A stretch of 24,100 nt of DNA from a virus: positions 1 through 24,100 of the IMG/VR virus record IMGVR_UViG_3300010885_054968; one strand, written 5' to 3'. The notes under the pieces are model-generated. The model saw only the letters and a list, made by a program, of their open reading frames with translations. It was not told where the DNA came from and ran no database searches. Shown piece by piece: positions 9,347 through 20,904 of the stretch (the first letter of the stretch is position 1; every line of letters starts with the position of its first letter). The translations under genes were made by a program, and so were the position numbers.

Positions 9347-10771
9347 CTATTTTAAATTTTTTAATGATTTAATTTCAGACTGTGTTTTGATCCGTTCGTC
9401 ATATAACCTAGTCAAAATAGTTCTGGCAACCGAATCAGTATCATTTGAGAATAACGTATCGTTTTTCGTATGAATTTCGGTACCTCTGGTTTTAACTTTT
9501 CCTTTTTTACCTAGATAGGTATCCGGAGAAATATTGAATTGTATTTGGATATTAGGATACATTGAAGAGAAATCATAACATGCAATATAATTATAATAGC
9601 CTGGAATAGGTTGTTTAACGTAAGCGCCTTCGTATGTTGCATCAGTATCCTTTGATTCTCCCCAAGGAAGTTTCATCATTCGCTGATTCTTATTTAAGAA
9701 CTCACGACACATTAAGATCTCAGCAATATACACTGGACTAAATACTTTGTTAACTTCTACTTGTGAAACGTTTGCAATAGAATAGGCAACATCTAGTAAA
9801 GAAAGCTTATCTTCGATCAATTTTACTAGAATAACGTCAATTACGTTATAGAGAGTAAAGAGATAAGTATCCTTCTGAAAAGAATAAAACGTTGGATATT
9901 TGTGCTTTAGTTTTGCAACTCCCAATACTAAACTGGCAATATAGTCTAATTTATAATTTTCAATTACTTTAAATGGCTTAAGCTTTTCAAAAACTTGCAT
10001 GTAATCTAGTACGCCAAGATGAACTGGAATCTTATTTTTTGAAACAGTTGATCGAGAAGGCATTTTTGCAACAGAATCGATCTTTAAGTTTTTACCACGA
10101 TTCATCAAGTATTTCCAGTCGAACTCAGTTACGTTCCAACCAGTAACAAATGAGAATTTTGGCATGATATTGTGAAAATAGAAGGTCATGAGTTCTTCTT
10201 CACTCTTAAAGAACTTATATTTGATCTTAAATTCCTGCTGGAACAACCATGCGTCTTGTGGACGAAGAGGCGTAGTCTTACGAAAATACTCGTTTACTTC
10301 TTTTTCCATTTTAACAATATCGTCTGACGAAAGACCGTCTGGCTTTTCATCATCGTTAAGAATAGAAAGAATATACGTGATATTGTCTTCGTTACAGAAA
10401 GAAATAAGACCGACTGGCATTCTAGCTCTTTCCGGATCTGGAAAAGAATCATCAATCAATTTGATCTCAATATCAAGATATGTCTTCTTTGGTAAGTTAT
10501 CAAAACTATAGATTGCTTCGATCTCGTCAGCTGTCAACTTTTCTCTAATTAGTTCTTGAACTCTAAATTGATTGACATATTGACCTGGAGAATTATTCTT
10601 TTTGACATATCGCCCATCCCAATTTTTAACTGCACTTGGAGTCGAGGACTCTACCCAATTAAATAGTTCATGGTCAACAAGTCTTTTTTGAATAAATTCT
10701 ATTTTGCCGGCCGAGTTATAATAAGAAATTAGTAGAGTTTTGTCCTCAAGGACTTCAGCGCCAATTATCAT
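9347..10771 (-). CDS. 43: Family B DNA polymerase, N-terminal half (exonuclease plus palm motif A); gp43 split protein
   Basis: N-terminal part of a T4 gp43-like replicative polymerase. The proofreading exonuclease is complete: Exo I TYLDIE (D100, E102), Exo II GWNVTEFDW (D218), Exo III YNVID (Y308, D312), all within a few to about a dozen residues of their T4 gp43 positions. Polymerase motif A follows (YDFSSMYPN, D400), then the beginning of the fingers (LYDERIKTQ, R460 at the place of the triphosphate-binding arginine), and the protein stops at residue 474. Motif B (K...NS.YG) and motif C (DTD) are absent here and nowhere else in the window, while full-length gp43 is about 900 residues. The end is a clean stop with the next gene touching it, so this looks like a split gene with its C-terminal half elsewhere. 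Split gp43 genes are known in some T4-related phages. Confidence 0.93.
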   Translation of the reverse strand: MIIGAEVLEDKTLLISYYNSAGKIEFIQKRLVDHELFNWVESSTPSAVKNWDGRYVKKNNSPGQYVNQFRVQELIREKLTADEIEAIYSFDNLPKKTYLDIEIKLIDDSFPDPERARMPVGLISFCNEDNITYILSILNDDEKPDGLSSDDIVKMEKEVNEYFRKTTPLRPQDAWLFQQEFKIKYKFFKSEEELMTFYFHNIMPKFSFVTGWNVTEFDWKYLMNRGKNLKIDSVAKMPSRSTVSKNKIPVHLGVLDYMQVFEKLKPFKVIENYKLDYIASLVLGVAKLKHKYPTFYSFQKDTYLFTLYNVIDVILVKLIEDKLSLLDVAYSIANVSQVEVNKVFSPVYIAEILMCREFLNKNQRMMKLPWGESKDTDATYEGAYVKQPIPGYYNYIACYDFSSMYPNIQIQFNISPDTYLGKKGKVKTRGTEIHTKNDTLFSNDTDSVARTILTRLYDERIKTQSEIKSLKNLK

Positions 10772-16989: not shown

Positions 16990-18012
16990 TTATAGATCTT
17001 TGAATAAATCATCATACTCATCAGATGACTCAGATTCAACTGGTGTACTAGGTGTCGACATAGCAACAGGAGTAGAAACATTTGGTGCAGAAGTAAATTC
17101 AAAAGAATCTTTCTGAGTTGCAAGAGGGGCATTCGATCTACTAGGAGTAAGACGTGCACGAATCAATTCGTTCATTTTTTGATCTTTACTCTTATCAAGC
17201 ACCATTTGTAAGATCTGACGCTGTGGAATAGCTGCAACAATTGCATCTGCTACTTGCGAGTAAGTATCTTCAGTCCACTCTTGATGAAAATATTCATCCA
17301 TTGTTGGTGTATTCTTTAAAAGAAATTCTGTCACCAATTTAACGGCTTTTTCATCATTTTTTACCTGAACGCTTGTATCTCCAATTTTAAATACAAATGG
17401 AGTGAGTTCGTCCATAAATTTACACTTTGACCAATCTCTAAATTCTTTGGTCTTTTTACCAACAACACAAAGAAAATCTTTACCTTCTAAAAGGTGATAT
17501 GGGTTTACTTTCTTTGAAAGATCGAGTCCATCTACTTGTTCAGGATTAAGTTGCTGATCAATGACTTGATCAATTTGATTTCTAAACTTGAAGATGAGAA
17601 TAGATCCTTCGAGGTCAGGACGTTGTGGATCTTTTTTAATATAAACTGGAGAGTGGTGAGTATACCATCTTGAAAAGTTTTTGCTGAGTTCCTCATGCAG
17701 CATAGGCTCTTCTTTCTTAAGAGAGCGAAGAACTGATTCTAGTGTCCATAAAATGGAAGGTTGTTCAATATTAGATGGGCAATCAACAATTAATGACTCC
17801 TTAGTCAATTGATTCCAAAATTTTGCCGAATACTTAGTGTACTTGCTTTTTTTCTTGTCGTGTAAGTAAGGAATAAACCTGAATACTGACTTGTAAGAGC
17901 CATTGTAGGCATTTGGGTCTGGATCGTAGACCTTAGGATCAACTTTTTTTGTTTTGGTTGCGTTTTTTCCTTTGTTGAATGTGTCTTCTGGTAGGTCAAA
18001 GAAGTCTGTCAT
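16990..18012 (-). CDS. 32: gp32-like single-stranded DNA-binding protein
   Basis: Coats single-stranded DNA and organises the fork. Evidence: an N-terminal basic region rich in K (residues 13-24), a YKSVFRFIPYLHDKKKSKY opening of the core like the AVIRFLPS region of T4 gp32, a large core with aromatic and basic residues, a flexible S/T/P-rich linker (about 290-325), and an acidic C-terminal tip ending SDEYDDLFKDL, comparable to DLDDLLNDL of T4 gp32. Length 340 against 301. The cysteine/histidine zinc site of T4 gp32 is not visible: only three well-separated cysteines occur (VDCPSN, FLCVVG, SKCKF). It starts a new operon after a terminator, and its leader has no Shine-Dalgarno. Confidence 0.88.
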   Translation of the reverse strand: MTDFFDLPEDTFNKGKNATKTKKVDPKVYDPDPNAYNGSYKSVFRFIPYLHDKKKSKYTKYSAKFWNQLTKESLIVDCPSNIEQPSILWTLESVLRSLKKEEPMLHEELSKNFSRWYTHHSPVYIKKDPQRPDLEGSILIFKFRNQIDQVIDQQLNPEQVDGLDLSKKVNPYHLLEGKDFLCVVGKKTKEFRDWSKCKFMDELTPFVFKIGDTSVQVKNDEKAVKLVTEFLLKNTPTMDEYFHQEWTEDTYSQVADAIVAAIPQRQILQMVLDKSKDQKMNELIRARLTPSRSNAPLATQKDSFEFTSAPNVSTPVAMSTPSTPVESESSDEYDDLFKDL

Positions 18013-18127: not shown

Positions 18128-18400
18128 TTAAGCGTTTACTTTGGTTTCTTCAACAAGCGTTTGGCGAAGTTCCTTTGCAGAATTTTGAATTGCAGTCATT
18201 TGTGATTTTACTGCAGGATGTTTAATTGCTTTGCGAATTTCTTGCATCTTCTTTTTAAGTCGATTGCCTGCACTACGAACGCCCTTATTATAATATTTGG
18301 TCGCATCGTCTTCCGCAGCTGCAATAAGTTCGTTGATTGGGCCGAAAACTGAATTTTGTGCTTCAGAGACAGCAGCCTTAAGTTGTTCAAACTGATTCAT
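18128..18400 (-). CDS. Histone H1-like (Hc1-type) DNA-binding protein
   Basis: A 90-residue basic protein resembling the small Hc1/histone-H1-like proteins of Bacteroidota and Chlamydiae, which compact DNA. The diagnostic core is A.KYYNKGVRSAGNRLKKKMQEIRK (about residues 33-57), matching the family pattern of an aromatic residue, then KG...AG.R.RK.MQ.L. Two long helices surround it. I use the ATG at 18400; an ATG at 18439 would add 13 residues of poor fit. It is the last gene of the operon headed by the putative internal head proteins and is followed by a terminator. It could condense phage DNA in the head or act on host or replicating DNA. Confidence 0.8.
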   Translation of the reverse strand: MNQFEQLKAAVSEAQNSVFGPINELIAAAEDDATKYYNKGVRSAGNRLKKKMQEIRKAIKHPAVKSQMTAIQNSAKELRQTLVEETKVNA

Positions 18401-18445
18401 GGTTATTATTTTTTGAAGTATTATACTTGTAACAACCATTAAGTT

Positions 18446-19192
18446 TTATATAGAATTGACTATTTTTTCTACTTTTTTTGAAAAGTCCGCATCAGGATAC
18501 CTCTGAAGCGCATATTTCACCCAAACTTGCATGACCTTTGAATATTCATCAGGACTAATATATTTTGAAATAATATACGGTCTAAGATATTCATGAAAAA
18601 TTTCATCGAGCGATCTTTGTTGTTCTTTTGAGCTAACGTACATGCCCTCAACCATTGACTCAATTTCATCAGGTAATAAAAAATATCTAAAATTAGTTTT
18701 TGCAGATTCTCTATCTTTAGGATAAGACGGATTTGCATTGTATGGAGTTTCATCTTCTCCCATTTGACCCAAATGATTTGTTTCATGAGTCAATATATCT
18801 AGCAAACGATAGCTTAATTTGGTATATACATGAGGCTCTTTGCGAGGATCCAGAATAAGGTAAATAGAAATTATTGATTTTATATTAGGGTCCTCTGAAA
18901 TGCGTGAGGTAGCATCAATTGCATATCCTTTTTCATTAAAGTTTATTTCTTCCCATGGTAAATTCTTAAAACGATCATCTGTTTTAAAATCAGGAGAGGA
19001 ATCTTTCTTAAGAAAAAGAATTAAGTTAAATGAATATGGTTCATCAAATGAAATTCCTGAAAACTTCGTGTATTCGTTTTCTTGTTCACGAAATTGGCGA
19101 ACCGTCTTAATTAAAGAAGACTTGAGTTTCTCTAAAAACTGCTGATCTTCTTCATAATTTTCATTAATAAATTGAGAAAAAGACTTTACCAT
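18446..19192 (-). CDS. Putative internal head protein with HExxH metalloprotease motif
   Basis: A 248-residue protein. Its N-terminus MVKSFSQFINE closely resembles the capsid-targeting peptide of T4 internal proteins and Alt (MKTYQEFIAE in IPIII), including an (I/L)xE site like those cut by the prohead protease, here after E11. A zincin motif HETNH (136-140) sits in a LDILTHETNHLGQ helix. It is followed by YFLLPDEIESMVEGMY (170-185), the usual place and form of the third-ligand glutamate in small zincins. The body has no signal peptide or membrane segment. It lies directly behind another protein with the same type of leader, under a late-promoter-like box. A packaged protease released into the host or used in the head is inferred; target unknown. 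Confidence 0.85.
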   Translation of the reverse strand: MVKSFSQFINENYEEDQQFLEKLKSSLIKTVRQFREQENEYTKFSGISFDEPYSFNLILFLKKDSSPDFKTDDRFKNLPWEEINFNEKGYAIDATSRISEDPNIKSIISIYLILDPRKEPHVYTKLSYRLLDILTHETNHLGQMGEDETPYNANPSYPKDRESAKTNFRYFLLPDEIESMVEGMYVSSKEQQRSLDEIFHEYLRPYIISKYISPDEYSKVMQVWVKYALQRYPDADFSKKVEKIVNSI

Positions 19193-19675
19193 TTACGTTT
19201 TAAATTTTATGAAAGTAATATTTATGTCGTCCGTTGTTGGAATACCATCGTGTGTAAATATTATGCTCACATATGGTTCACGACGGCCTGAAATATCGGT
19301 AGATAGAGAGTTTTTAAGTTTTTCTAGAAAAGGAACGTCTTCGTTTGAAACATTAAGTTTATCTCCTCTTACTATATCTGCAACATTTGAGCGGCGTAGT
19401 TCAATTACTGAATCTGTCATGTTATTCTTTTCAGTAGAAGCAATATTGGTTTTTGCCCACTTGTCTAGATCAGAATCAGTCATTGAAAATACTGGAAAGT
19501 CCATTGAAACACTTCCATCTGGATAGCGCTTTCTCTTTAATCCACTTAGTTCATCTAAAAAAATAAAACTATGTCTCTTTTCCTTTTTTGGAGCAGCAGG
19601 GCCGGCCGGAAGGCCGACAGTTGTTAGATCTTGCTCAGCTAAGAATTTTGAATATGAAGTAATATGTTTTCTCAT
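19193..19675 (-). CDS. Putative internal head protein with capsid-targeting N-terminus, function unknown
   Basis: A 160-residue protein. It begins MRKHITSYSKFLAE, the same arrangement (SY..FLAE) as T4 capsid-targeting peptides, with an LAE prohead-protease-type site after E14. A low-complexity G/P/A segment follows (21-30). The C-terminal third contains FLEKLKNSL, nearly identical to FLEKLKSSL near the start of the adjacent HExxH protein, and then a strand-rich end (YVSIIFTHDG, DINITFIKF). No catalytic motif is seen. First gene after the GATAAATA box; its stop abuts the next start. Packaging with DNA is inferred from the leader peptide. Confidence 0.82.
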   Translation of the reverse strand: MRKHITSYSKFLAEQDLTTVGLPAGPAAPKKEKRHSFIFLDELSGLKRKRYPDGSVSMDFPVFSMTDSDLDKWAKTNIASTEKNNMTDSVIELRRSNVADIVRGDKLNVSNEDVPFLEKLKNSLSTDISGRREPYVSIIFTHDGIPTTDDINITFIKFKT

Positions 19676-19702: not shown

Positions 19703-19710
19703 TATTTATC
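19703..19710 (-). promoter_or_regulatory. Late-promoter-like box GATAAATA before the internal-protein operon
   Basis: On the minus strand this reads GATAAATA, followed by AT as at the sheath gene. It ends 27 bases before the ATG at 19675. It sits immediately beyond the terminator of the OmpA-like gene, as expected for a fresh transcription start. Confidence 0.55.
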
Positions 19711-19767: not shown

Positions 19768-20904
19768 TTATTGCCATCTAACACTAACAATCGATTTTCT
19801 ATTGTCTGCATCAATTATAGCAGTAGCAGATTCTTCTCCATGTAAAGTAATTTCTATTAAGCTTCTAGGGATGCCAAAATCGGTAAATACTTTAGCTATT
19901 GTTTTGGCTCTACGCTCAACGATAATCAAATTGTGTTCTGGAGTACCTATCGTATCGCAATATGAATCAATAGTAATTTTTCTGCCTGGATTATTGATAA
20001 TATTTACTGCAATATCGGAAAGGAACGAATTATACATGAGTGGGTAATTCCACTTATTAAAGTCATAATAAATTACTGCAGTTAATGCATCTTTTGCAAG
20101 AGAATCTGAAACGTGTGCAAGAGCAGCTGAATCTACTTGAGTAGAAGGAAGAGGAACGGTCGTATCTTTTTCAATTATACGCTGTATTACAATAACTGTG
20201 TCTTTTCGATAAAATGGAGTAGTCTGCCTAGGTCGAGGATCGTGCCATTCTAATATACGATTTTGATCAGATCCAAAAGTATAGCTTGCGCCTATTGCAA
20301 ATTTAGAATAGTTATCGTATTCTGTCAATGAATTTGAATAACCGTCTAGATAATCTCCGTTTACTCGATTAAACGCATATTCTAAGTTAAGTGTAAGTTT
20401 ATTGCTTATATGATATTTGACACCCATTCCTACTGGGATAACCTGTTCGATTTTTTTGGTGCGAACCGTGCCCTTAGTATCGGTTAACTCAGTACTCGTA
20501 CGAATCGTTCCATATCCAATGAAACCATACAGCTGCATTTTGTTGAATTGATTGATAAATCTAATGTTGCCGGTTTGAATTTGACCCATAATCGATACTT
20601 GATAATCAATTGATGTCTTGTAAGAACGATAAAGATTGCTTCCATGTAAAGTAGATCGATATCCATCTAATGAAAAGGCGAGGTTATGTGAAATAAACTT
20701 GTTTACACGTAGTCCATAGCCAACATTGGATGAAACACCGGTGTAAAAAAGATTATTTTTAGCAATGTCGGTGTTGCCATAATTTATGGCAGCATTTGCT
20801 TGTACGGACCACGTGTTAAATTCGCGAAGATTTAAGTTTCGAGTTTGAGCAAAAGAGAAAGAACTCAAGAGAATTGCCCAAACCAATAAGATTGATTTTT
20901 TCAT
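19768..20904 (-). CDS. OmpA-like outer-membrane protein with peptidoglycan-binding domain
   Basis: A 378-residue exported protein. Residues 1-19 are a signal peptide (KK, hydrophobic core, SFSFA before Q20). Residues about 25-215 are rich in alternating aromatic strands with the YSKFAIGASYTFG type of ending, consistent with a small outer-membrane beta-barrel. A P/T-rich linker and a helix follow. Residues about 277-378 are an OmpA-C peptidoglycan-binding domain (YYDFNK ... SYCDTIG ... NLIIVERRAKTIAKVF ... HGEE) with the diaminopimelate-binding D317 and R332 at the same spacing as D271 and R286 of E. coli OmpA. It looks like a Bacteroidota host protein captured by the phage. It follows thioredoxin after 46 bases and ends at a strong terminator. 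Possible roles are blocking superinfection or stabilising the infected envelope. Confidence 0.92.
   Translation of the reverse strand: MKKSILLVWAILLSSFSFAQTRNLNLREFNTWSVQANAAINYGNTDIAKNNLFYTGVSSNVGYGLRVNKFISHNLAFSLDGYRSTLHGSNLYRSYKTSIDYQVSIMGQIQTGNIRFINQFNKMQLYGFIGYGTIRTSTELTDTKGTVRTKKIEQVIPVGMGVKYHISNKLTLNLEYAFNRVNGDYLDGYSNSLTEYDNYSKFAIGASYTFGSDQNRILEWHDPRPRQTTPFYRKDTVIVIQRIIEKDTTVPLPSTQVDSAALAHVSDSLAKDALTAVIYYDFNKWNYPLMYNSFLSDIAVNIINNPGRKITIDSYCDTIGTPEHNLIIVERRAKTIAKVFTDFGIPRSLIEITLHGEESATAIIDADNRKSIVSVRWQ

Follow-up and report, generated by a model that had tools for sequence, protein, structure and literature searches.

The 24.1-kb virus fragment IMGVR_UViG_3300010885_054968, all 24,100 nucleotides of which we refer to as "the window," comes from the genome of a T4-like phage. 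Its T4-like gene set includes gp46/47-like genes, a replicative helicase, UvsX, part of a DNA polymerase, the tail sheath, GroES, gp32, and ribonucleotide reductase. The Family B DNA polymerase ORF, at only 474 aa, covers the exonuclease and part of the polymerase domain, and is possibly a split gp43. Here, we describe a gene on the minus strand of the window that an initial annotation proposed to encode a capsid-packaged metalloprotease. The ORF is exactly where that annotation placed it (Table 1), with an N-terminal MVKSFSQFINE ending in E11 and an HETNH motif at residues 136–140.

Table 1. Features of the locus and of related contigs; positions are in the window unless another contig is named.
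Feature	Position	Strand	Remarks
T4-like late promoter motif GATAAATA	19703..19710	minus	35 nt upstream of partner gene
Partner gene	19193..19675	minus	160 aa; own leader MRKHITSYSKFLAE/Q (YSKFLAE/Q)
Leader-bearing putative zinc metallopeptidase (P0001)	18446..19192	minus	248 aa, ATG start; 49 distinct family members
T4-type capsid-targeting-like leader MVKSFSQFINE, residues 1–11	19160..19192	minus	predicted cut after E11 (L/I-x-E rule)
HETNH zinc-binding/catalytic motif, residues 136–140 (predicted)	18773..18787	minus	HExxH conservation
E176, candidate third zinc ligand	18665..18667	minus	invariant in 119 proteins; start of predicted helix 174–191
Histone H1-like Hc1 protein	18128..18400	minus	~90 aa; PF07432 E=1.1e-10, above cutoff
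gp32-like ssDNA-binding protein	16990..18012	minus	phrog_224 E=4.2e-15; anchor of conserved gene order
OmpA-like outer-membrane beta-barrel protein	19768-20904		between thioredoxin and leader operon
Family B DNA polymerase ORF	9347-10771		474 aa
S77 protease-scaffold fusion	L101 (G001 about 55503-57485), L102-L104, L274 (LR756504.1)		related phages
Immuto-type multidomain protein	L037:9733-12456		relatives L129-L208

The putative protease gene lies directly downstream of a partner gene whose stop codon abuts the protease ATG. The partner protein has a leader of its own, and in a profile comparison of the partner with the protease family, this leader is the only segment that aligns. Besides the window, 46/46 distinct relatives with enough upstream sequence show the pairing, and the two ORFs mostly overlap by 1 or 4 bases. 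Upstream of the partner gene is a T4-like late promoter motif that, judged by its sequence and position, probably drives both leader genes. In related contigs, GATAAATA upstream of genes is strongly strand-biased (50:12 and 43:5); for the operons of many relatives, the upstream sequence gave no exact match to it. The next gene downstream of the protease gene encodes the Hc1 protein, whose start we placed, by comparison with relatives, at an internal ATG of the ORF at 18128-18439; in most relatives, a gap of ~45 nt separates the two genes. The order leader partner, protease, Hc1-like gene is retained in relatives; in the window, the Hc1 gene is the neighbour of gp32. On the other side of the operon, the phage encodes an OmpA-like outer-membrane beta-barrel protein. 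The arrangement of the leader genes supports late expression and head targeting of the putative protease, as far as gene context can indicate.

Two scans of viral contigs yielded a protease family of 49 distinct proteins, full or partial and counting the query, with matches sharing 37–55% identity with the query. A search of 84,980 bacterial and archaeal genomes recovered no relative, and hence no sign of a host-gene origin. The family proper is likewise absent from the cultured phages of the collection searched; the sole find among phage records was a distant domain of Flavobacterium phage immuto. No significant match to the family was found in Pfam, NCBIfam, or PHROG, and a Pfam scan of every member of the family and sister alignments (see below) returned only scattered sub-threshold matches. 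The nearest relatives of the clade's sheath and scaffold proteins are in uncultured huge phages, a Flavobacterium phage, and Prevotella Lak phages, which makes Bacteroidota the likely hosts.

The domain in phage immuto is at the C-terminus of a 907-aa protein annotated as NadR-like, and is homologous to the query (tblastn E 2e-7), with the motif HE[IV]EH...KE[VI]DANLQGMY. Comparison of the immuto-type and query family profiles with hhalign gave a probability of 98%. We refer to the immuto-type domains as the sister family: there are at least 80 relatives in viral contigs, of which we analysed 70 distinct proteins. Mostly, the sister domain is one domain inside a protein of 500–1300 aa that has a second HExxH domain. 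For example, the L037 protein and its relatives combine NTase-like and NMN-adenylyltransferase-like parts with two HExxH domains; these proteins are polyvalent-like, and their annotation is NadR-like only. Two sister domains, L187 and L194, stand alone and have an IP-like leader ending in NE. The late-promoter motif was not seen upstream of sister genes. The protease family showed no significant similarity to the other HExxH domain that immuto-type proteins contain (HEMIHH); a value of 99.9% between the sister set and the HEMIHH domain was an artefact of sequences that contain both domains.

The HETNH motif, which the initial annotation read as a zincin motif, is borne out by the relatives: HExxH is intact in 49/49 distinct family members and in 70/70 sister domains. 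In the joint alignment of 119 proteins, H136, E137, and H140 are all invariant, as are R161, Y170, E176, G183, and W224. A third zinc ligand had been proposed within PDEIESMVEG (residues 174–183), which contains both E176 and E178. Of the two, E176 is preferred to E178, which is D in 70/70 sister domains; E182 is Q in the sister family, and neither E178 nor E182 is retained as the preferred ligand. Because a glutamate is kept at position 176 in all 119 proteins while E178 becomes D, E176 is most likely the third ligand, on this alignment. In the family alignment, mean entropy is 0.90 bits in the HExxH block and 0.81 bits in the E176 block.

An AlphaFold model of the query (pLDDT 86) has a long N-terminal helix, in which the leader is of low confidence, followed by four strands, the HExxH helix (residues 122–143), and a later helix (174–191) that bears E176. 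The model of a sister domain (pLDDT 82), derived independently, has the core elements in the same order, and both resemble the MPTase core of polyvalent proteins (PMC5512222) in this order. Thus, the zincin arrangement of HExxH on one helix and a glutamate on a later one is present, as judged by conservation and predicted secondary structure. The order of elements fits a zincin fold, whereas a Foldseek search of the two models against the PDB gave no solved structure at E <= 0.001. The top PDB matches (PIH1, nucleotidyltransferases, and McrBC) were dismissed for their low probability and high rmsd, and the family profile, run as an HMM against solved structures, had no match. Among viral models, Foldseek found one clear same-family protein, the uncharacterized A0A6J5SV68, plus weaker uncharacterized matches. 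Since there is no significant solved match, it is the motif, its conservation, and the predicted topology that point to membership of the zincin fold. The lack of a significant match to solved peptidases would also suit a zinc protein that has lost catalysis or was never a peptidase and is packaged as an internal protein with a structural or DNA-associated role, and the gene next door is histone-like. We consider this very improbable: the general-base residue, E137, varies no more than the ligands do in the 119 proteins, and a structural role alone would not require it.

The leader is similarly well conserved. Across 48 full-length proteins, F5 is found in 48/48, S4 and E11 each in 47/48, and residue 9 is I, V, or L in 47/48; one relative, L032, has S and D at the cut site in place of I and E. 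Mean entropy is 0.93 bits in leader columns 3–11 and 2.28 bits in columns 12–40; therefore, the leader is under a constraint of its own, as measured in the alignment. The T4-style leader of the initial annotation is thus confirmed as a sequence feature. T4 IpII and IpIII begin with MKTYQEFIAE, which follows the same pattern. In T4 IPIII, targeting depends mainly on residues 4 and 7, and processing on residues 8 and 10, with the prohead protease cutting after L/I-x-E (PMC9026906). With an offset of one, these four residues correspond to F5, F8, I9, and E11 of the query, all conserved in the family, and the leader ends in a predicted prohead-protease site, I9-N10-E11.

Leaders of this type are not confined to the protease and its partner. 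In two related large contigs, with the scaffold protein excluded, [FY]xx[FYHW][LIV]xE is enriched at protein N-termini: 10 observed versus 0.63 expected in the first (p 1.5e-9) and 8 versus 0.83 expected in the second (p 2.6e-6). Genomes G001 and G002 each encode ~10 proteins with IP-like N-terminal leaders (L109-L128), plus variants such as LNFKNWLNE and YKNWRALYE, and many of the genes are downstream of late-promoter motifs; these proteins are candidates for a large set of head-packaged proteins.

The scaffold itself contains a related sequence. The S77 prohead protease and gp23 are each found in 4/6 large related contigs; the S77 protease is not in the window, which at 24 kb is too short to show its presence or absence. 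In related phages, the S77 protease and a scaffold-like region form a single fusion protein; the scaffold-like region contains about eleven repeats of 14 residues with the form [YF]xx[YFH][LIV]xE. Shuffling the scaffold stretch 10,000 times never gave more than three motif matches, against nine in the actual sequence. A repeat array of this kind, with units such as YSEYIAE, is also present in an uncultured huge phage. The resemblance of the repeat unit to T4-type leaders is clear by eye and modest by position matrix: matches to a matrix derived from the scaffold repeats are only weakly enriched at N-termini, and the matrix does not cleanly single out the leaders. Mimicry of the scaffold by the leader is therefore an idea rather than proof. 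It is conceivable, although we lean against it, that the leader is a copy of one scaffold repeat unit, that late proteins gaining such a unit at their N-terminus enter the core and are cut free, and that the zincin is an obligatory member of this head-borne set rather than an optional weapon. Such a scheme could also account for the origin of the T4 leader (compare MKTYQEFIAE with the repeat YSEYIAE).

The number of leader-like motifs on late proteins of this lineage, some of them large, bears on another reading, in which the query is a late protease acting inside the infected cell, in lysis, on the envelope, or by cleaving a regulator, with a leader that serves some other purpose in assembly or localisation. 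A late operon does not require its products to be packaged. Nevertheless, the query's leader fits the T4 capsid-targeting pattern, I-x-E cut site included, and the scaffold that is fused to the prohead protease repeats this pattern; we regard an intracellular role as improbable.

How the protein compares with known systems depends on which part is considered. Like T4 IPI–III and Alt, it has a short N-terminal leader of the form aromatic-x-x-aromatic-[IL]-x-E with a predicted prohead-protease site at its end, and it is probably the product of a late gene; the phage is T4-like, and an S77 protease is encoded by relatives. Unlike them, its body is a putative zincin, its gene is core and syntenic rather than accessory, and it belongs to a two-leader operon; membership of the T4 internal proteins is established for the leader only. 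The second comparison is with the MPTase domains of polyvalent proteins such as P1 DdrB and N4 vRNAP (Iyer et al. 2017). Shared features are the HExxH helix and downstream glutamate helix, the order of elements, the tie to head-packaged phage proteins, and, for the sister domain, a place within multidomain proteins with NTase-like and NMN-adenylyltransferase-like parts. In contrast to polyvalent MPTases, the query is a stand-alone protein of 248 aa with a predicted cleavable T4-type leader, and it has no significant profile or structural match to described MPTase clades. Polyvalent architecture implies at least two domains; the query has one domain plus the leader, and only the sister family is multidomain. 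Third, the C-terminal domain of phage immuto is homologous and shares the HExxH and conserved glutamate motifs, whereas the immuto protein itself does not begin with a leader. Our literature search found no stand-alone metallopeptidase with a CTS tag. The query is best described as a stand-alone, probably head-targeted zincin; zincins of this sort are otherwise known mainly inside large polyvalent proteins. By analogy, it would act like a CTS-delivered internal protein with an MPTase-like domain.

The distribution of the gene within the clade bears on what such a protein might do. In a survey of the best 80 gp32 loci, the protease gene is kept in 68/68 contigs that have this clade's gp32 and enough upstream sequence, although more distant phages may be without it. 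Because of this retention, the gene looks like a core function of the clade rather than a variable weapon of the T4-IP type, and the putative protease is probably packed with the DNA, for head maturation or early infection. The initial annotation offered both an early weapon and a head-maturation factor; the first half is weakened by the gene's fixed, syntenic status, since the internal proteins of T4 are accessory and poorly conserved (PMC9026906). Core status disfavours a purely host-specific weapon and leaves room for head maturation; overall, we give roughly equal weight to a host-specific weapon and to a role in head maturation or, more generally, after ejection.

In the strict form of the head-maturation reading, the zincin is directed to the prohead core, where it would act on proteins of the head or core, such as its co-expressed partner, while DNA is being packaged or earlier, and would do nothing in the new host. 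Processing ahead of packaging has been suggested by Iyer et al. for zincins such as P1 DdrB (PMC5512222). The retention of the gene in synteny, unlike the variable T4 IPs, and its constant pairing with a second leader protein are both in keeping with this reading. On the other hand, the lineage already has an S77 prohead protease for the task, and we know of no demonstration of zincin-type head maturation in a T4-like phage. We consider it a real but distinctly less probable alternative, with perhaps a one-in-several chance of being right.

The best reading, which we favour with some confidence, is that the protein is a late-expressed, head-targeted zincin. Conservation, late-gene context, and a predicted zincin-like topology give good support to its two components, a head-targeting leader and a zincin active site. 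From these, we infer packaging, cleavage, and peptidase activity, together with zinc binding, ejection, and a substrate. The proposed sequence of events is as follows. The zincin-type zinc metallopeptidase would be made late in infection along with the second leader protein. Docking in the prohead core would depend on the 11-residue leader, which might imitate one unit of the repetitive scaffold fused to the S77 prohead protease. The prohead protease would then cut after I-N-E11, and the mature enzyme of ~237 residues would remain in the head and exit with the DNA at the next infection. In the new cell, it would most likely cleave either a protein that all hosts of the clade share or phage proteins ejected alongside it.

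If it is indeed head-borne, the protein would give widespread uncultured T4-like phages a concrete candidate for proteolysis within the head or as infection begins. The resemblance between leader and scaffold repeat, in turn, makes an old question, how T4 leaders recognise the core, directly testable.
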